The notes under the pieces were generated by a model that made no database searches, was not told the origin of the DNA, and worked only from the letters and a program-made list of their open reading frames with translations. A program made the position numbers and the translations under genes. This document shows, piece after piece, positions 23,781 to 64,000 of a stretch of DNA of 64,000 bases. Numbering within the stretch: the first letter of the stretch is position 1; the number at the start of each line of letters is the position of its first letter. This DNA comes from Kiloniellaceae bacterium (GTDB lineage: Bacteria > Pseudomonadota > Alphaproteobacteria > Kiloniellales > J153): NCBI GenBank assembly GCA_021776115.1, contig JAJFGN010000026.1, forward strand, positions 1 to 64,000, in the 5' to 3' direction.

Positions 23781-24848
23781 ATGTGCTCGCGATTGACATG
23801 CCTGTTTAGGTTGTTGGTCAGTTATCATTGGCCGCGCGCGCTTCTGTTCGCGATCGGAATTTGCGTACTCGCGAGCGTGGCTCGAGGCTCGGCGGCGCAA
23901 GAACAGCCTTACAAATCGGCCGATCCAGGATATCCCTATTCGGTCTACAGGGAAGTGGCGGAGGACGTCCTTGCTTTGGGTCTGTCGCCCGACGACGGCC
24001 GAACCCTAAGTTGCGCGCACAATTATTACGGGCAAAATCCTTGTTTAAGTTCGATCAGTCTTTGGCGGGATTTTGCCGATCGGCACCAGCTCAAGCGGGA
24101 TCGGGTCAGCGCAAAGATCTTTCAAGCCTATATCCGGCGCGACTACCGCTTGGGCGACCGGCTTTATGCCAGAATGAAGGGTTACGAGCTGCCGCCGCAC
24201 GGGGGCTATGAAGGGCCGGGCTTGGAGGTCCTGGCATTCGATCTGGACCCGGACTCCAATCAGGAGCACGGGTGCGAAAATAATCTCTTCTCGGATTTTC
24301 CTTGCAAGCAGTCGGCCCAGGCCTGGGAAACTTTCTCCAAAAAGCACGGGCTACCGCAGAACCGCGAGGGTGGTGCCGTATTTCAGGCTTACATAAATGG
24401 CGATTTCGTCAGGGGAGATCGCCTCTATGCCTCACTTACCGGGCGGCGCACTCAATTCGAAATTGTCCACTCAGGCATCGGCAACGAAGTCATGGCCTTG
24501 AACATGGGAGTCTCGACCTCGGAGCGCGATGCCTGCGACATCGACCCCTTCGGCTTCAATCCCTGCAACGGCGCGACCCGTGTCTTGCGTAATTTTGCCA
24601 AGAAGTACGGCCTGGAAGCGAACCGGACTGCCGGTAAGCTTTTGCAGGCCTACGCGAACGGCGACTTGGAGCGTGGCGACAGGCTCTACGCTTCCGCCAA
24701 AGGTATTGCGGTCGATATGCTCCTGGACCAATACCTGGGACCGGACCGAAAGAAAGAACGCAAAGTCCCACGCCTGATCATCGATATCCGGGCCGAGCGT
24801 CTCGGCCCGATTCTCCGCCTACCGCATGAATTGTCTCTAGAGGGATGA
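23781..24848 (+). CDS. Secreted triple-repeat protein with CX9C motifs, unknown function
   Basis: The protein has 355 residues. The N-terminus is hydrophobic (about 18-38) and ends near ARGSAAQ, a likely signal peptide. The rest holds three related repeats with an exact spacing of 87 residues. Cys pairs lie at 78/88, 165/175 and 252/262, each separated by nine residues and followed after about 37 residues by GDRLYA at 125, 212 and 299. Shared positions include W/L-R-x-F-A-x-K-x-G-L, FQAY and GD. Paired Cys in an exported protein suggests disulphides or a bound cofactor in the periplasm. I do not recognise the family. It precedes a TolA-like gene by 13 bases, so the two are probably co-transcribed. 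Confidence 0.75.
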
Positions 24849-24861
24849 GGTTCAGGTCGCG

Positions 24862-25692
24862 GTGGCTAGTAAGCGTACCTTTTTTAGCCGCGCAAAGAAT
24901 GGGCCGCCAAGGTCGGGCCAAATTGTCCCGAGCGCATCGCCACCCATCTTGTCCAAGGATCCCAGGCTTGCCGGCTTGGCAACCATTCTCGCCGGCGGCC
25001 TGCATGTCGTCGCCGTTGTCGCCGCACTGAATTTTCTTGAACTCGGACGGCGGCACGATCAGCTTTCCCTGATCCCAGTGCAGATGGTTTTCGTCGAGCC
25101 AGAGCCCGAACCCGAGCCAGAGCCCGAACCCGAGCCAGAGCCCGAACCCGAGCCAGAGCCCGAACCCGAGCCAGAGCCAGAGCCAGAGCCAGAGCCCGAA
25201 CCCGTTCTGCCACCGATCCCAAGGGCCAAGCCAGTGTTGCCCAAGGAACCAATTCCCGATCCGCCGCAGATTGCCCTGCCTAGGATAGTGGAGCCCGAGA
25301 CTCCACCTGGGAAATCGGAGCCCGAGCCTGAGGAAACGGCCCCAGGGGTGACAATGGTTGGCGAGGCGTTGGACGACGCGGCGGCGCAAGATCTGGCAAT
25401 CCTGCAGGAACTGGCGGCGGCGATACGGGCGCAAATCGCGCGCTGCTGGCCCGGCTCAAAGTCCGCGACTCTGGCGGCGGGAGATCCCGTAGTCATCGAC
25501 GTTTCGCTGAACCGGAGCGGGTCGGTCCGTAAGGCCTATGTCACGGAAGTTGAGCGTCGTCTAAAGGACCAGAGCTATCGTCAGACTGCGGACGCCGCCC
25601 AAGGGGCGATTCTAGAGTGCGCGCCCTTCAAACTGCCGCCTGAGCAATACGTTTATTGGCGAGAATTGACCCTGCGTTTTTTGGGCAGGTAG
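24862..25692 (+). CDS. TolA/TonB-like envelope protein with Glu-Pro spacer
   Basis: The protein has 276 residues from GTG 24862. A single hydrophobic segment (about 32-56) anchors it in the inner membrane. A rigid arm of 18 Glu-Pro units follows (residues 79-114), then a Pro-rich linker, then a C-terminal domain of about 90 residues. That domain, with [24 protein letters not shown] and [11 protein letters not shown], resembles the alphaproteobacterial TolA/TonB C-terminus. Such proteins span the periplasm and pull on outer-membrane partners using a Tol/ExbBD-type motor. No motor genes are nearby, and the main tolA is expected in a tol-pal operon elsewhere. The partner here may be the triple-repeat protein, which is inference. 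Confidence 0.78.
25096..25203 (+). repeat. In-frame 6/18-base tandem repeat encoding (Glu-Pro)18
   Basis: This 108-base stretch alternates GAG/GAA with CCA/CCC. Much of it follows an 18-base unit, GAGCCCGAACCCGAGCCA, repeated about four times. A run of shorter 6-base units (GAGCCA) follows. All unit lengths are multiples of three, so copy-number change would lengthen or shorten the protein arm without a frameshift. Confidence 0.9.
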
Positions 25693-56961: not shown

Positions 56962-59094
56962 TCAAATCTGGCCCAGAGTTTTTATCTGGGTCTTGGCGTA
57001 GACTTCGTTCTGGGACATCACGATGGTCGCGGGACGGAACCGCTCCACAATCGAGCGAACGAAGGGGCGGATCGCGGGGCTGGTCAACAGAACTGGAACT
57101 TCGCCCATCATTGCGTGCCGCTCGAAGGTCGTTCGCACCGTGCGAATGAATTCCTGTAACTTGGTTGGCGCCATGGATAGGCGGCGTTCCTCGCCTTCCC
57201 CCACGATTGCCTCACCAAAGGCTTGCTCCCACTCCACCGACATTGTGATCATCGGCAAAATGCCCTGCTCGTTGGTCTGCGAGGTCGATATCTGTCGCGA
57301 CAAGCGTGCGCGCACATGTTCGGTAATGGCGGCCACGTTGCGGGTATAGCCGCAGGCTTCTGCGACGCCTTCCAGGATCGTCGGCAGGTCGCGAATCGAA
57401 ACCCGCTCGGCTAGCAGGTTCTGCAAGACCCGCTGCACGCCGCCGGCAGAGATCAGATTTGGAATCAGATCCGCGATCAGCTTTTGTTGATCCTTGTCGA
57501 GTTCGTCGAGCAGCTTTTGTGTTTCGGCATAGGACAACATCTCCGACATGTTGTCCTTCACGAGCTCGGTCAGGTGTGTCGTGATGACCGTTGGCGGATC
57601 GACCACCGTGTAACCGCGGAACAAGGCTTCTTCACGTGCGCTGCCGTCAACCCACACGGCGGGCAATCCGAAGGTCGGTTCGGTAGTCTGCTCACCGCTC
57701 AAGCGGATGGCCTCGCCTTTGGGGTCCATGACCAGTAGCATGTTGGGCCGCAGTTCGCCGCGCCCGGCCTCGATCTCCTTGACCCGAATAACATAGGTGT
57801 TGGCTGGCAGTTGCAGGTTGTCCTGAATACGCACGGCGGGCAGTACAAACCCGATTTCCTGCGCCAGTTGCCGGCGCAGCGACTTGACTTGATCGGTTAG
57901 ACGTTGCCCGCCTTCGCTATTGATCATGGGCAGCAGACCGTAGCCGAGTTCAAGGCGTAGATTGTCAATTTGCAGGGCATTGCTAATCGGTTCTTCTGCA
58001 ACCGGCGTCGCGGCGAGGGCCTTGGCTTCCTCCGCCTCGGCGGTCTCGGCGGCGGTAAGTTTGCGGGTACTGGTCCACGCCAGTCCGCCGGCGACGCCCG
58101 ACAGCAAGAGGAAAGGCAGGGCCGGTATGCCGGGGAGCAAGGCCAGCGACAGCATGATAAAGGACGACAAACCCAGGGCGCGTGGATACCCGCCCAATTG
58201 CCCAAATAGGGCCTTGTCGGCGGACCCCACAGTGTTCGATTTGGAGACTAAAAGACCGGCGGCGGTGGAAACAATGATCGCGGGAATCTGCGTGACCAGG
58301 CCATCGCCGACGGTCAGGAGGGTATAAACCTGACCGGCCTCCGCGAAGGTTAAGTCTTTTTGCGCGACGCCAATGATCATACCGCCGATCACGTTGATAA
58401 AAGTGATCAGCAGTCCCGCAATGGCGTCGCCGCGAACGAACTTGGCCGCGCCATCCATCGACCCGAAGAAATTGCTTTCGTCTTCCAGAGATTTTCGGCG
58501 GCTTCGCGCCTCGGCCTCGTCGATCAGGCCGGCGGAGAGATCGGCGTCGATCGCCATTTGCTTACCCGGCATGGCATCGAGGCTAAAGCGGGCGGAGACT
58601 TCCGCGATGCGTCCGGACCCCTTGGTGATGACCACGAAATTGACGATCACCAGGATGGCGAAGACGATGATTCCGATCACGAAGTTGCCGCTCATCACGA
58701 AGCCGCCGAAGGCCTGAATAACGTTACCGGCGGCGTCGGTGCCTTCATGGCCGTCGGCCAGGATCAGGCGCGTTGACGCGAGATTTAGCGATAGGCGCAA
58801 CATGGTCGCGATCAACAAGACCGTGGGAAAGGAACTGAAATCCAAGGGCCGACTGATAAACAGGACTGTCATCAGAACGAGGACTGAAAGCGTGATGGAT
58901 ACCGCCAGAAAGACGTCAAGCAACCAACTTGGCATCGGCAGGATCAGGATGACGAGAATGCACGACACGCCCAGGGCGAGCGCGATATCGCCCCGCATAA
59001 GCGCGGTGGTAGACCGATTCAGAAAATCGGAACCTGTCGCGCCCTCGCCAACGCCTTTCGGCGCCGCAGGATCTGTTACTGCCTGTCCAGCCAT
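56962..59094 (-). CDS. flhA: Flagellar export gate protein FlhA
   Basis: The protein has 710 residues. The N-terminal half has eight membrane helices with the conserved FHIPEP-region equivalents: SRPLDFSSFPTVLLIATMLRLSLNLASTRLIL and FSLDAMPGKQMAIDADLSAGLIDEAEARSRR. The C-terminal half is the cytosolic docking domain ending IVMSQNEVYAKTQIKTLGQI. It forms the proton-driven gate of the flagellar export apparatus. Length is normal. It follows flbD by 22 bases. Confidence 0.95.
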   Translation of the reverse strand: MAGQAVTDPAAPKGVGEGATGSDFLNRSTTALMRGDIALALGVSCILVILILPMPSWLLDVFLAVSITLSVLVLMTVLFISRPLDFSSFPTVLLIATMLRLSLNLASTRLILADGHEGTDAAGNVIQAFGGFVMSGNFVIGIIVFAILVIVNFVVITKGSGRIAEVSARFSLDAMPGKQMAIDADLSAGLIDEAEARSRRKSLEDESNFFGSMDGAAKFVRGDAIAGLLITFINVIGGMIIGVAQKDLTFAEAGQVYTLLTVGDGLVTQIPAIIVSTAAGLLVSKSNTVGSADKALFGQLGGYPRALGLSSFIMLSLALLPGIPALPFLLLSGVAGGLAWTSTRKLTAAETAEAEEAKALAATPVAEEPISNALQIDNLRLELGYGLLPMINSEGGQRLTDQVKSLRRQLAQEIGFVLPAVRIQDNLQLPANTYVIRVKEIEAGRGELRPNMLLVMDPKGEAIRLSGEQTTEPTFGLPAVWVDGSAREEALFRGYTVVDPPTVITTHLTELVKDNMSEMLSYAETQKLLDELDKDQQKLIADLIPNLISAGGVQRVLQNLLAERVSIRDLPTILEGVAEACGYTRNVAAITEHVRARLSRQISTSQTNEQGILPMITMSVEWEQAFGEAIVGEGEERRLSMAPTKLQEFIRTVRTTFERHAMMGEVPVLLTSPAIRPFVRSIVERFRPATIVMSQNEVYAKTQIKTLGQI

Positions 59095-59116
59095 GAGCCG
59101 GCTATTATCCTAAGTC

Positions 59117-60517
59117 TTATGCCGAAGATCTCTCGGCCTCACCTGGCATCGGTATGGAGGCGCCGTCCTGGCTGTATAGCTTCAACTTGTTGCGCAAAGT
59201 ACGGATCGATATGCCCAGGATGTTCGCTGCGTGCGTGCGATTGCCCAGGGTGTGATTGAGGGTGTCGATAATCAAATCGCGCTCGACCGCCGCGACCGTG
59301 CGGCCGACGAGAGGCGGTGCGGCGTCCTGCGGTGAGGCTTCAGCCTGCGGGGCGCCGGGGGCTACACCGTTGCCGGTAACGTTGTCTGGACTGGCGCCGT
59401 TTCCGGCCGCCTCTGTTGCCGCGCCCCGCAACTGGATCGACTCGGGGGTGATTACGCCGTCGTGCGACAGCAACACCGCGCGGTGCATGGTATTTTCCAG
59501 CTCGCGCACATTGCCGCGCCACGGGTGCGTCAGCATCATCCGGCGAACTTCCTCGTTGGGAGCCGGTGCGGGTACTGCGTTGGCCTCGGCGTATTTTGCG
59601 ATGAAGTGTTCGGCCAGGATCTCGATGTCAGCTTGCCGATCCCGCAGTGGCGGCAGTTCTATGTTGACCACATTGAGTCTGAAATAGAGGTCCTCGCGGA
59701 AATTACCCAGGCGAACCTCCTCTTCGATATCGCGGTTAGATGTCGCCAGCAGGCGGATATCGACCTTGATCGGTTGGGTTCCGCCGACCCTGTCGACTTC
59801 GCGTTCTTGGACGGCGCGCAGGAGCTTGGCTTGCAAGCGCGGATGCATCTCCGAGATTTCGTCAAGCAACAACGTACCGCCGTTGGCTTCCTCGAATTTT
59901 CCGACCCGGCGCCCAATCGCCCCCGTAAATGCTCCTCTTTCATGCCCGAAGAGCTCCGATTCCAAGAGGTTTTCGGGAATCGCCGCGCAATTCAGGGAAA
60001 TGAACGCCTTTTGCGCGCGCTTGGATTTTAAGTGCATGTAGCGCGCCAGAACTTCCTTGCCCGTGCCCGACTCGCCGGTAATCAGAACGGTCGCATCGGA
60101 CGGAGCGATTTGGTCCGCCAGGCTCAGCACCTTTTTCATCGAGGGGTCGCGATGAATGACCGAGCTCGTTTCCTCCGCGACCGCGTTCAGAACCGCGGCA
60201 ATAAGTTCGGCGTCAGGCGGCAGGGGGATGTACTCTTTGGCGCCGGCCTTAATTGCCTCGACTGCAAGTTTAGTTTCGGCGCCGATCCCAAATGCGACAA
60301 CCGGGACGGATATGCGTTCAGACTTCAGGCTGGTGCACAGCTGTCGGATGTCCAGACGAACATCGATCATGACAATGTCCGCGCCCTGTCCCGATCGCAG
60401 CGCGGTCATGGCCCGCTCGACCGATTCTTCGTGGGCAACCTTCGCGCCTTTTTCCAGCGCGATCTTGCCGGCGGTCGCGATGTGCCCGTCGAGGTTGCCA
60501 ATGATTAGGAGACGCAT
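59117..60517 (-). CDS. flbD: Sigma-54-dependent flagellar activator FlbD
   Basis: The protein has 466 residues. The N-terminal 120 residues are an atypical receiver: phospho-Asp-like MIDVRLD is present, but the N-terminal acidic pair and the conserved Lys (here YIPLPPD) are lost, as expected for FlbD. The AAA+ domain has the Walker A GESGTGKE, the sigma-54 contact loop GAFTGA, and GGTLLLDEISEM. A Pro/Ala/Gly linker leads to a Fis-type helix-turn-helix (NRTHAANILGISIRTLRNKL). In Caulobacter FlbD needs FliX and switches on late flagellar genes; fliX is not in the window. Confidence 0.92.
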   Translation of the reverse strand: MRLLIIGNLDGHIATAGKIALEKGAKVAHEESVERAMTALRSGQGADIVMIDVRLDIRQLCTSLKSERISVPVVAFGIGAETKLAVEAIKAGAKEYIPLPPDAELIAAVLNAVAEETSSVIHRDPSMKKVLSLADQIAPSDATVLITGESGTGKEVLARYMHLKSKRAQKAFISLNCAAIPENLLESELFGHERGAFTGAIGRRVGKFEEANGGTLLLDEISEMHPRLQAKLLRAVQEREVDRVGGTQPIKVDIRLLATSNRDIEEEVRLGNFREDLYFRLNVVNIELPPLRDRQADIEILAEHFIAKYAEANAVPAPAPNEEVRRMMLTHPWRGNVRELENTMHRAVLLSHDGVITPESIQLRGAATEAAGNGASPDNVTGNGVAPGAPQAEASPQDAAPPLVGRTVAAVERDLIIDTLNHTLGNRTHAANILGISIRTLRNKLKLYSQDGASIPMPGEAERSSA

Positions 60518-60540
60518 ACCTTTTCTCCGGTTTTCCGCAG

Positions 60541-61380
60541 TCAGTCGAAGTGCTTTACCCGCTGAGCGGGCGACAAGATGGAGTTGATCAGGACTTCCAG
60601 CCGGCGCGGGTTTTCCTGGCGGTTGATCGACATCGCGCCCATCGTGTAGATGCGGTGGATCGTGGCTTCATTCTCGGAAATTCGTTCCAGCTTGCTGGCC
60701 AAGGGATGAAACAGCATGTTGGCTAGGACGGCGCCGTAAAACGTGGTCAAAAGCGCGACCGCCATGCTGGGCCCGATCGTCGATGGGTCGTCTAGGTTCC
60801 CCAGCATTTGCACAAGACCGACCAGTGTGCCGATCAGTCCCATGGCCGGCGCGACTTCCCCGGCACGGCGCAAGATACTGGCGGAGCGGACATGACGATG
60901 ATGGGTTGCGTCGCGCTCCTGCATCAGAACTTGCTCGATCTCTTCCACGGGCAGGCCGTCGGCGACCAGTTGAACGGCTTGGCCGAGGAAACGGCTTTGG
61001 CCCATATTCCTGCTGATCTCAACTAAGGACAGGACGCCCGTGCGCCGTGCGCGATCCGCCAGATGGAGGATTCGATGGGCGGCGCTGCTGGGATCTTCCG
61101 CATTGTAAATCACGGCGCGGAAGGCAAGCGATCGTGAATCCAATAACTCTTCCAGGGAAAACGAAGCCATGGTCACCAGGAAAGTGCCGCCAAAAACAAT
61201 CAGCATGGCGGGGACATCGACGAAGGACTCAGGCGACCCGCCTAGCACCATCGCAACCGCAATCACGGCAAAGGCGCCAATAACCCCGGCAAGAGTCGCG
61301 GTATCGATGCTAGGCGACGAAACGCGGGATCCACCGCCTCGGCGGGCCCCGGTTTTTGCCGTGGCGCTGATATTGGCCAT
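60541..61380 (-). CDS. motA: Flagellar motor stator protein MotA/PomA
   Basis: The protein has 279 residues. After a short basic N-terminus it shows four membrane helices and the MotA signature RRAGEVAPAMGLIGTLVGLVQMLGNLDDPSTIGPSMAVALLTTFYGAVLANMLFHPLASKLE. The DDPSTIGPSMA spacing resembles the PomA/MotP branch, which in some species uses sodium; coupling ion cannot be decided here. Its partner motB is not adjacent and must be elsewhere. It lies between fliN and flbD. Confidence 0.9.
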   Translation of the reverse strand: MANISATAKTGARRGGGSRVSSPSIDTATLAGVIGAFAVIAVAMVLGGSPESFVDVPAMLIVFGGTFLVTMASFSLEELLDSRSLAFRAVIYNAEDPSSAAHRILHLADRARRTGVLSLVEISRNMGQSRFLGQAVQLVADGLPVEEIEQVLMQERDATHHRHVRSASILRRAGEVAPAMGLIGTLVGLVQMLGNLDDPSTIGPSMAVALLTTFYGAVLANMLFHPLASKLERISENEATIHRIYTMGAMSINRQENPRRLEVLINSILSPAQRVKHFD

Positions 61381-61408
61381 GGGCGAGACTCTTTCTTCGA
61401 TCCGTGGT

Positions 61409-61774
61409 CTAGGACCGGTCCATCTTGATAATCTCGGTCATGGTGACGCCAAGGCGATCTTCGACGACAACAACCTCTCCACGCGCTACGAGGCGGTTGT
61501 TTACGTAGATATCGATGGCCTCGCCGACTTTTCGGTCCAATTCGACGACCGCGCCACGTCCTAGCTTAAGCAGCTGGCTGACCTGCATACTGGCCTTGCC
61601 CAGAACCGCGGAGACTTGAACCGGAATGTCGTAGACCGCCTCCAGCTCCTTGACGTTTGCGGGGCCCTTGGCTGAGTCGGTGGTTCCCTGGGCGCCCGAT
61701 GCGTCGTCTTCTTGCTCGACGGCTTCGTCGTCTGGCTCTAGGTCTGCCAACTCCAAGTCTTGATCTTCTGCCAT
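61409..61774 (-). CDS. fliN: Flagellar switch protein FliN
   Basis: The protein has 121 residues. The first 40 are acidic and probably unstructured. The SpoA-type domain follows: YDIPVQVSAVLGKASMQVSQLLKLGRGAVVELDRKVGEAIDIYVNNRLVARGEVVVVEDRLGVTMTEI. It forms the lower part of the C-ring and binds FliH and phospho-CheY with FliM. fliM is not in the window. Gaps of 27-28 bases to both neighbours support one operon. Confidence 0.94.
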   Translation of the reverse strand: MAEDQDLELADLEPDDEAVEQEDDASGAQGTTDSAKGPANVKELEAVYDIPVQVSAVLGKASMQVSQLLKLGRGAVVELDRKVGEAIDIYVNNRLVARGEVVVVEDRLGVTMTEIIKMDRS

Positions 61775-61801
61775 GTTGATCTCCTGTGGGGTGATTCTGT
61801 C

Positions 61802-62506
61802 TTAGGCGGTCGTGTTTCGATTTTCGTTTTTCTGGGGCACGGCGGGCGCGTTTTCATCGGTCCCCAAGGGGGCGCTTGCCATGCGGCGAATCGCTTCGTC
61901 AATGTCCTGCCATATGCGCCCAATATCGCGCTCGGCGCCGCCATCCGCCCATTCGATCCGGACGTCGCTGGAGGCCATGCCGTCGTCAGCGAGAAAGACG
62001 ATCTTGCCTTCGAACCCGGCGTTACTGGCCAAAGGGCCGACACGGTCCTTGACCCTGTCCAACAGGGCGTCACAAACCCGGATGACGATTCTAGGTTCAT
62101 CGCATAGACGCGTCATGGCATCGCGGACGACCGCCTCAATTTCCTGCAACCCTCGATCTTGGGCCATCTTCGGGAAAAACTTGCGTACCATCGCCGCCGC
62201 GACATCCACGGCAGTACGGATCTGTTGTTCTCGCATCGCGGCCACTGCTTCTTGCAGACCCGTCATATGCTGCCCGACCGTCGTCAGCGCCTCGGCCGTG
62301 ACTTGCTCCAAGGATTGCAGGGCTTCTTGGCGTCCTGTCTCCTTGCCGGCCGCCATGCCTTCAGTGCGGGCCTGCGCCAAATCCTCGTCGAAGTACTTCG
62401 GTTCGGGCGGAGCTTCGACTGGTTTCTTGCGCTTGTCGTCCTGGTTCTGCTCGAACGATGTGTCGAACAGGAACTTTTCCGGCGCATTGGAGGCGTTGAT
62501 AGCCAT
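61802..62506 (-). CDS. fliH: Flagellar assembly protein FliH
   Basis: The protein has 234 residues. The N-terminus has a polar linker (NQDDKRKKPVEAPPEPKYFDEDLAQARTEGMAAGKETG), then a long helix with QIRTAVDVAAAMVRKFFPKMAQDRGLQEIEAVVRDAM, and the C-terminal domain has RIVIRVCDALLDRVKDRV. This is the usual FliH layout of an export-ATPase regulator that binds FliI and FliN. It begins three bases after the fliG stop. The family is poorly conserved, so position strengthens the call. Confidence 0.85.
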   Translation of the reverse strand: MAINASNAPEKFLFDTSFEQNQDDKRKKPVEAPPEPKYFDEDLAQARTEGMAAGKETGRQEALQSLEQVTAEALTTVGQHMTGLQEAVAAMREQQIRTAVDVAAAMVRKFFPKMAQDRGLQEIEAVVRDAMTRLCDEPRIVIRVCDALLDRVKDRVGPLASNAGFEGKIVFLADDGMASSDVRIEWADGGAERDIGRIWQDIDEAIRRMASAPLGTDENAPAVPQKNENRNTTA

Positions 62507-62509
62507 GGA

Positions 62510-63526
62510 TCAGTACACCAACTCGTCGTCGCCCTTGCCTTCGGAGATGATAATTTCGCCGCTTGCGGCCAAATCCTTGGCAATCTGAACGATGTACATC
62601 TGTGCCTCGTCTACATCGCGCAAGCGAACTGGGCCCATCGCGCCCATATCCTCGCGCATGATCTTCGCCGCCCGTTCGGACATATTCGAGAAGAACAGGT
62701 TGCGCAGATCCTCCGACGATCCCTTGAGCGCGATCGAAATTTTGTCTTTTCCCGCGTTGCGCAATAGCGTCTGAACTCCGCCCGGGTCCAGGTTCCCAAG
62801 ATCTTCGAAAGTGAACATCAGAGCTTTGATTCGTTCCGCCGAGTCCTTGTTGCGTTCCTCTAGAGAGGTTAAGAACCGGGACTCCACAGAGCGTTCGAGG
62901 TAGTTGAAGATGTCGGCCATCAGTTCGTGCGAGTCGCGCCTGTTGGTTCGCGCCAGGTTCGACATGAATTCGTTGCGCAAGGTGCGTTCGACGTCGTCTA
63001 GAACTTCTTTTTGAACCGATTCCATGCGCAACATGCGCATGATGACTTCCATGGCGAAGGGCTCCGGAAGAAGTCCAAGCACTTTGGCGGCGTGTTCGGA
63101 CTTGATCTTGGAAAGAACCACCGCGACCGTTTGCGGGTATTCGTTCTTGAGATAGTTGGCCAAAACCGTTTCGTTTACGTTGGTCAGCTTTTCCCACATG
63201 GTTCGGCCGGCGGGACCACGGATCTCGTCCATGATTCCGGAGACGCGGTCTTGGTCGAGGACCTTGGCCAAGAGGCGCTCAGTATTGTCGAAGTTACCGA
63301 CCAGGGAACCGGTTGAGGAAATTTGATCCGCGAATTCGACCAGCAGGCGCTCGACCATCTGGGAACTCACGTTCCCAAGGTTCGCCATGGCCTGCGATAG
63401 TTCCTTGATTTCGTCGTCGTCCATGATCGAGAACAGACGCGTGGCGTTCTCTTCTCCCACGGACATCATGAGCAGCGCGGCCTTCTCCGGCCCCGTCATG
63501 GTTCTATAGTCTTCGCGCAGACGCAT
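62510..63526 (-). CDS. fliG: Flagellar switch protein FliG
   Basis: The protein has 338 residues. It carries [40 protein letters not shown] at the N-terminus, the middle ARM-type domain with [29 protein letters not shown], and the torque-generating C-terminal domain with [58 protein letters not shown], including the charged residues that face MotA. ATG 63526 is used; ATG 63499 is possible. It couples the rotor to the stator. Confidence 0.95.
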
Positions 63527-63568
63527 TCTTAGCGGTCCCTTGCTTCCCTAAACTCGAGCTGCTCAAGC

Positions 63569-64000
63569 CTAGGTTTCTTGGTAGAGCCAGCCGCGAATGA
63601 TCGCGACCGCCTCATCGGGGTGCTTGTCGACAATCTCGCCGATCTTGCGTACCGAGGATGCGCGGACGCGCCCCTCGACCTTATTCAGATCGATCATTTG
63701 TTCGATCTCCGCCGCAACGGTTTCCGAGTTGTCGTCGTCACCCTCGTTGAGGGCTAGGGTGCTGGGGCCGGCCAGGGCTGGTCTTGGGCCACGTTGATCG
63801 GTCAATTGGTTCTCCGTATTTCCTTCAAGCGGCCCTTCGATGACCCGGCCCACCAGCGGGCGAACGACGAGAAGCAGCACCAAGATCGCGACCACACCGA
63901 GCACGAAGATCTCGGCGATGCGCATAAGATCCGCCTGTTCCAAACCGAAGAGCGAGCCCGCACTTTCGTCGCCGAGGCCATCGAGCGCATCGACGAAGGG
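63569..64000 (-). CDS. fliF: Flagellar MS-ring protein FliF, C-terminal part
   Basis: The open frame continues beyond the right edge; the last 143 residues are visible. It has one membrane helix (RIAEIFVLGVVAILVLLLVVRPLVGRVI), a polar cytoplasmic linker, and the C-terminal FliG-binding segment RVRASSVRKIGEIVDKHPDEAVAIIRGWLYQ. FliF builds the MS ring, the base of the flagellar rotor. It lies 42 bases before fliG as first visible gene of the ten-gene operon. Confidence 0.92.
   Translation of the reverse strand, partial: PFVDALDGLGDESAGSLFGLEQADLMRIAEIFVLGVVAILVLLLVVRPLVGRVIEGPLEGNTENQLTDQRGPRPALAGPSTLALNEGDDDNSETVAAEIEQMIDLNKVEGRVRASSVRKIGEIVDKHPDEAVAIIRGWLYQET

Follow-up and report, generated by a model that had tools for sequence, protein, structure and literature searches.

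The window, by which we mean the whole 64,000-nucleotide stretch of Kiloniellaceae DNA analysed, carries on its forward strand a gene for a protein of 355 amino acids (the CX9C protein; positions 23781–24848), delineated by its open frame, by three repeats and by relatives in which the six cysteines are invariant. Hydropathy revealed a signal-peptide-like N-terminus (23781–23897, forward strand) with a hydrophobic core at residues 20–34, and we read a putative cleavage site after residue 39; an earlier note on this DNA had called the repeat protein exported. The repeats, each with a pair of cysteines spaced by nine residues (CX9C) and a GDRLYA motif, lie on the same strand and span residues 50–136 (23928–24188; CX9C 78–88, GDRLYA at 125), 137–223 (24189–24449; CX9C 165–175, GDRLYA at 212) and 224–310 (24450–24710; CX9C 252–262, GDRLYA at 299), with boundaries set by the register of these landmarks and a phase that is arbitrary. 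The other cysteines of the protein (2, 7 and 28) all fall within the signal-peptide-like region. The earlier note described an exact 87-residue register, and a script confirmed that every step between the cysteine pairs (78/88, 165/175 and 252/262), and between the GDRLYA motifs, equals 87 residues. Pairwise, the repeats are identical at 31, 27 and 32 of 87 residues, and their ungapped BLOSUM62 scores (154, 121 and 148) are 10.9–12.7 SD above those of 5,000 shuffles each, the top shuffle score being 2. The exact register is, however, peculiar to the window protein: among its seven three-repeat relatives, pairs 1 and 2 are spaced by 88 residues and pairs 2 and 3 by 87–91. Beyond the repeats, alignment with the LVIEVYPG ending of the relatives and likeness to the TolB box are suggestive of a C-terminal strand at residues 332–344 (24774–24812, forward strand).

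We found no significant family in Pfam or NCBIfam for the window protein and eight members of its family, and nothing significant among PDB sequences, whether by single sequence or by profile. The best sub-threshold matches were DUF2695 (0.06, far under the cut-off) and PDB 6u83 (E 0.21). Pfam held no TPR or Sel1 profile at E 1 for the CX9C protein, and no TolB_N match in it. The view that no named family shows this pattern was thus borne out in Pfam, NCBIfam and PDB sequence searches, and profile searches with the repeats and the family, which the earlier note had proposed as a check, returned no significant match to a known domain. The CX9C protein is a probably exported member of a repeat family without a name in the libraries searched.

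The gene is present in a single copy in its own genome. A family alignment matched 13 out of 61 genomes of the host's alphaproteobacterial order, and eight of these encode three-repeat proteins (the window's own genome, G000, and G033, G041, G043, G045, G049, G438 and G439). The other five were left out of this count: G004, G013, G020 and G021 match solely through an extra N-terminal domain, which is present in relatives and absent from the window protein, and the CX9C gene of G005 is a fragment. G045 and G049 each encode an additional two-repeat paralogue, which brings the total to ten intact proteins. Weak matches in G024 and G031 in one search were unconfirmed in the family-alignment search of the order. 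In a sample of the class the family alignment matched 2 of 385 genomes, and in a sample of the phylum the repeats alone matched 2 of 398, in both cases the own genome and one weak match. The weak match in G409 reads to us as a TPR-type protein and not as a CX9C protein; that in G795 is a frame without CX9C. A scan of named genomes, which relied on one peptide pattern that distant members may escape, gave seven loci that are the seven relatives and fall in Kiloniellales, Kiloniellaceae, Rhodovibrionaceae, an unplaced alphaproteobacterium and Tistlia consotensis USBA 355. A search of plasmids with the Tistlia CX9C protein gave no match. Within the genomes searched, the CX9C family is thinly spread and so far found in one order. 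Other proteins of the order (L033, L034 and L040), with what we read as lipoprotein-like starts, share the extra N-terminal domain seen in the relatives, which is duplicated in tandem in L040 (1483–2793, reverse strand) and in the CX9C protein of G438 (L046, 3815–4580).

The cysteine pair is kept in all 28 repeats of the ten intact proteins, so that the conserved cysteines described earlier are seen in every one of them, and no homologue lacking the pairs was encountered. All 24 repeats of the eight three-repeat proteins fit C-x2-[ND]-x5-P-C, a pattern written post hoc after the repeats had been viewed, and the four repeats of the two-repeat paralogues retain C-x8-P-C. Past residue 39, the eight three-repeat proteins have no cysteines outside the pairs. 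For the window protein (pLDDT 72.4, pTM 0.57) and the Tistlia protein (pLDDT 75.8, pTM 0.50), AlphaFold2 predicted helical repeats at moderate confidence. In all six modelled repeats, the residue after the first cysteine and the residue before the second were assigned as isolated strand-or-bridge, from which we infer that the paired cysteines face each other and that a disulphide may close an 11-residue loop within each repeat. Foldseek gave no matches in the PDB at E ≤0.001 for either model; the weak matches, all at E >0.2 (best 0.23), included TPR, Sel1 and HAT solenoids, among these the YbgF TPR domain. VIA searches with the repeats, which rest on a moderate model, gave a best Z of 3.0 (KatG C-terminal domain), with Sel1 and OGT rows at Z 2.0–2.4. 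The structure prediction that the earlier note had recommended thus yielded mostly helical repeats with weak matches to known folds. In the Tistlia model the N-terminal domain consists of two helices and four strands, and VIA matched this domain of the relatives to NTF2-like (Z 7.3), VirB8-like (Z 7.2) and cystatin (Z 6.0) structures, matches that, by VIA's own warning, may reflect a common arrangement only.

Directly downstream of the CX9C gene, on the same strand, lies a TolA-like gene (24862–25692), whose product has one membrane helix with a histidine, a Glu-Pro-rich linker and, as judged by NCBIfam and alignment, an end that resembles TolA domain III. Within the linker, positions 25096–25203 encode 18 uninterrupted Glu-Pro units. 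The NCBIfam model tolA_full matched this protein at 1.1e-5 over residues 175–271, under the curated cut-off, and the genome's own canonical TolA is likewise under that cut-off (35.1 of 59.45 bits). A TonB model gives the stronger match (5.3e-12), although this falls on linker residues 37–160. The two TolAs of the genome are 42% identical over domain III, with both cysteines (195 and 253 in the neighbour) kept, which we take as modest evidence of TolA kinship, better than the library scores. Four paired TolAs had no Pfam match at 0.1; in NCBIfam at 0.01, three of these were unmatched and one matched tolA_full over its front part (residues 34–125). In each of nine paired TolAs measured, a single hydrophobic helix lies close to the start and a Pro-/Glu-rich stretch is present; the nine vary widely in length (276–639 amino acids) as well as in proline and glutamate content. 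The membrane helix contains SxxxH in eight of the nine and AxxxH in that of the window. SxxxH tests two (S and H) of the four positions of the membrane SHLS motif, described as essential in TonB and TolA in an excerpt of PMC8928145.

The TolA-like gene proved to be a constant neighbour, a point that the earlier note had marked for checking: it lies directly downstream, on the same strand, of all ten intact CX9C genes (eight three-repeat and two two-repeat), the copy at L048 being truncated by a contig end. With the start codons chosen, and with L020 left out, three gene pairs share a 4-nt overlap and six are separated by 1–64 nt. We compared all open reading frames of at least 80 amino acids against each other (E 1e-8) at 11 loci, with flanks of up to about 10 kb, shorter on small contigs, and with antisense frames of the same genes excluded. 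Only the CX9C and TolA genes recur between distant loci; loci of close relatives share further genes (G045 with G049, and the window with G005). Because the TolA-like neighbour is constant, the proposal that the CX9C protein is a candidate envelope component holds.

Elsewhere in the host genome, on contig C49, lies a tolQ-R-A-B-pal cluster that includes a TolA of its own and that we read as ybgC-tolQ-tolR-tolA-tolB-pal-cpoB; the TolB_N and ExbB-type assignments come from search matches and the other gene names are our reading. The window neighbour lies outside this cluster and is, therefore, a second TolA. Elsewhere in the window, positions 56962–63943 read to us as a flagellar gene cluster, and an ExbB-type match at 60661–61002 reads as MotA. 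TolA domains are present in 59 of the 61 genomes of the order. Of the eight genomes with an intact pair, six (G000, G033, G041, G043, G045 and G049) have a TolA in addition to those that are paired, and the drafts G438 and G439 gave no TolA besides the paired one. On a tree of 37 TolA domains, 11 of them paired, the paired label changes twice, against a mean of 9.7 for shuffled labels, and none of 500 shuffles was as low. This suggests that the paired TolAs cluster together on the domain tree, where long branches meet, the window's included, and where a single label change for paired TolAs was seen in just 24% of bootstrap trees. Other second TolAs, one in G028 (L090) and two further ones in G043 (L091 and L092), have no CX9C pattern nearby. 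At L090 (2800–3951, forward strand) a C-terminal TolA domain sits behind a different, non-CX9C front with a signal-like start. In genus g8 (G011:C13, G034:C12, G046:C8 and G051:C386) a second TolA-like match lies a few hundred bases from the first. Second TolAs also occur in G009, G011, G016, G021, G031, G034, G037, G046 and G051.

Across the alignment, the CX9C proteins retain their C-terminal strand, ending in LVIEVYPG or a near form, in FVVEIYP (L049 and L050), or, in the paralogues, in LIIRVYPG. According to an excerpt of PMC7066135, TolB binds to TolA by adding its N-terminus as a parallel strand; in P. aeruginosa, where the TolA box of TolB is ADPLVISSGNDRA, the residues Leu25, Val26 and Ile27 are prominent. 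In the own TolB the TolA box is ELVVDITRGFVQPLPIAV; 28 out of 30 TolB loci of the order fit the pattern of the box, and the other two read ELFVDVTGPNFEPLPIAI. Scored against eighteen TolB boxes, the ends of the CX9C proteins reach 9.5 to 14.0 (12.3 for the window), and by the same scoring, out of 125 background open reading frame ends, five score 12 or more and two score 14 or more. Another stretch outscores the C-terminal end in the window protein, L045 and L047, three of the ten proteins, the window's strand being the second best within its own protein. A resemblance of the C-terminal strand to the TolA box of TolB, and docking through it, are, thus, only suggested. An N-terminal TolA box like that of TolB was not found in the CX9C protein, in which the similar strand is C-terminal, and the AlphaFold2 models are helical in the repeats instead of showing the beta-propeller expected of TolB.

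In the window's family (nine genomes) the pair is intact in the window genome alone. In G003, which belongs to the window's genus, the formate dehydrogenase neighbourhood is kept, the second TolA is reduced to its C-terminal part with a broken frame, and the CX9C gene was undetectable at the syntenic site by tblastn (best E 1.5). In G005, where both genes are fragments, repeat 1 is joined to the last part of the TolA gene in a different frame. Six other family genomes gave neither gene at E 0.1 in 2–3.5 kb around DUF3305, some of these regions being shortened by contig ends, and their whole genomes each contain one TolA and no repeat protein. With the pair broken or half-lost in both G003 and G005, its joint decay fits the direction predicted for a functional pair; these are draft genomes, in which assembly error is possible. 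In both G005 (L019) and G003 (L089), a protein with CXXCH motifs that we read as cytochrome c-like is encoded next to what is left of the pair at the formate dehydrogenase locus.

The above results suggest that the CX9C protein is, on balance, probably the periplasmic partner of a dedicated second TolA, the two forming a two-gene envelope module. The CX9C protein would be exported, its mostly alpha-helical repeats each having a loop locked by an intra-repeat disulphide. The second TolA would be anchored in the inner membrane and reach into the periplasm with its acidic proline-rich linker, and would probably be driven through its membrane helix by the TolQR (or ExbBD) motor. The two proteins would be in physical contact and, more speculatively, the C-terminal strand might dock by adding itself as a strand to TolA domain III, in the manner of the TolB N-terminus. 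We tentatively propose that this is a second Tol-type machine, which would share TolQR and in which the TolA paralogue would pull the disulphide-locked repeat protein via a C-terminal TolA box. It is equally tentative that this box is a topological mirror of the N-terminal box of TolB, which would make it a force-transducing branch unseen in the literature we searched. Searches for CX9C together with TolA gave nothing on point as judged by title, and those directed at a further TolA, whether called second, paralogous or TolA-like, turned up no relevant paper, by title or start of abstract, among the matches listed; the main text of the Tistlia exoproteome paper (PMC4545795) does not contain 'TolA'.

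Alternatively, it might be the helical repeats, rather than the C-terminal strand, that attach to the second TolA's linker; they would control an envelope enzyme such as a peptidoglycan synthase and be set free by the motor. The precedent would be CpoB: its TPRs interact with domain II of TolA and also regulate PBP1B (excerpt of PMC7391070). We regard this reading as possible, if rather doubtful: it would accommodate the mostly helical models and the weak Foldseek matches to TPR, Sel1 and HAT solenoids, but the Pfam search at E 1 gave no TPR or Sel1 profile and VIA no match over Z 3.0, and the lengths and Pro/Glu content of the paired TolAs diverge, whereas the CX9C proteins retain their C-terminal strand. 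TolA is also targeted by bacteriophages and bacteriocins, as stated in the same excerpt (PMC7391070), and an alternative TolA with a partner could serve as a decoy or as immunity against those that use TolA. Such a conflict module would be consistent with the patchy presence (8 of 61 genomes) and with the decay in close relatives; it appears unlikely, however, given that the pair is kept across several families of the order and that mobile genes were not among the recurring reading frames in the general comparison of the loci.

Two further explanations concern the CX9C protein itself. The earlier note offered disulphides, metal or haem binding as roles for the cysteines. While the two models suggest intra-repeat disulphides, we found no support for the other part, and a periplasmic metal- or haem-binder with the cysteine pairs as ligands seems very unlikely: the six cysteines are invariant and an Asn or Asp is kept inside the loops, but the haem motif CXXCH is absent from the window protein, no His or Met occupies a fixed place in the loops, and in the models the cysteines of a pair probably face each other, which would make the pairs self-closing. 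Participation in formate dehydrogenase function or in molybdenum-cofactor handling is highly improbable. DUF3305, DUF3306 and a formate dehydrogenase-like gene (our reading) come next in the window, as they do at the fragment site of G005, and the only other place where such genes were seen beside the pair is the syntenic site of G003. However, the other CX9C–TolA loci showed none of these genes in flanks that extend to about 10 kb at most and less on small contigs, and DUF3305 is present in all eight family relatives searched, all of them lacking an intact CX9C gene. The neighbourhood with formate dehydrogenase, to which the earlier note pointed, is therefore a feature of the window's own family and was not seen in the examined flanks of the other loci.

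The periplasmic partner of a second TolA, which we favour, can be set against three known systems. Descriptions of Tol-Pal usually include a single TolA. The CX9C module resembles Tol-Pal in combining an inner-membrane TolA-type protein with a domain-III-like end and the gene of a probably exported partner, which ends in a TolA-box-like strand. It differs in that the partner has no TolB_N or TPR profile match, carries the strand at its C- and not its N-terminus and contains CX9C repeats, and in that the module consists of just two genes, apart from tolQRB-pal. Helicobacter cysteine-rich proteins are disulphide-bearing Sel1/TPR solenoids, with which the CX9C proteins would share helical repeats, paired cysteines and export; the CX9C unit, however, is 87 residues long, has no Pfam match and, in the models, has its cysteines in a loop ahead of the helices. 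CHCH twin CX9C proteins have two CX9C motifs, cross-paired, in one helical hairpin. The window protein shares their cysteine spacing, but its family is bacterial and has one pair per 87 residues, in a modelled loop with a proline before the second cysteine, and the Pfam search, which gave no match for the CX9C protein, did not place it among them.

If a TolA paralogue and a private, probably exported partner do form a conserved cassette, this would point to a motor that can be redirected to other cargo. Tistlia consotensis USBA 355 would offer a compact test case for such a TolA paralogue and its partner.
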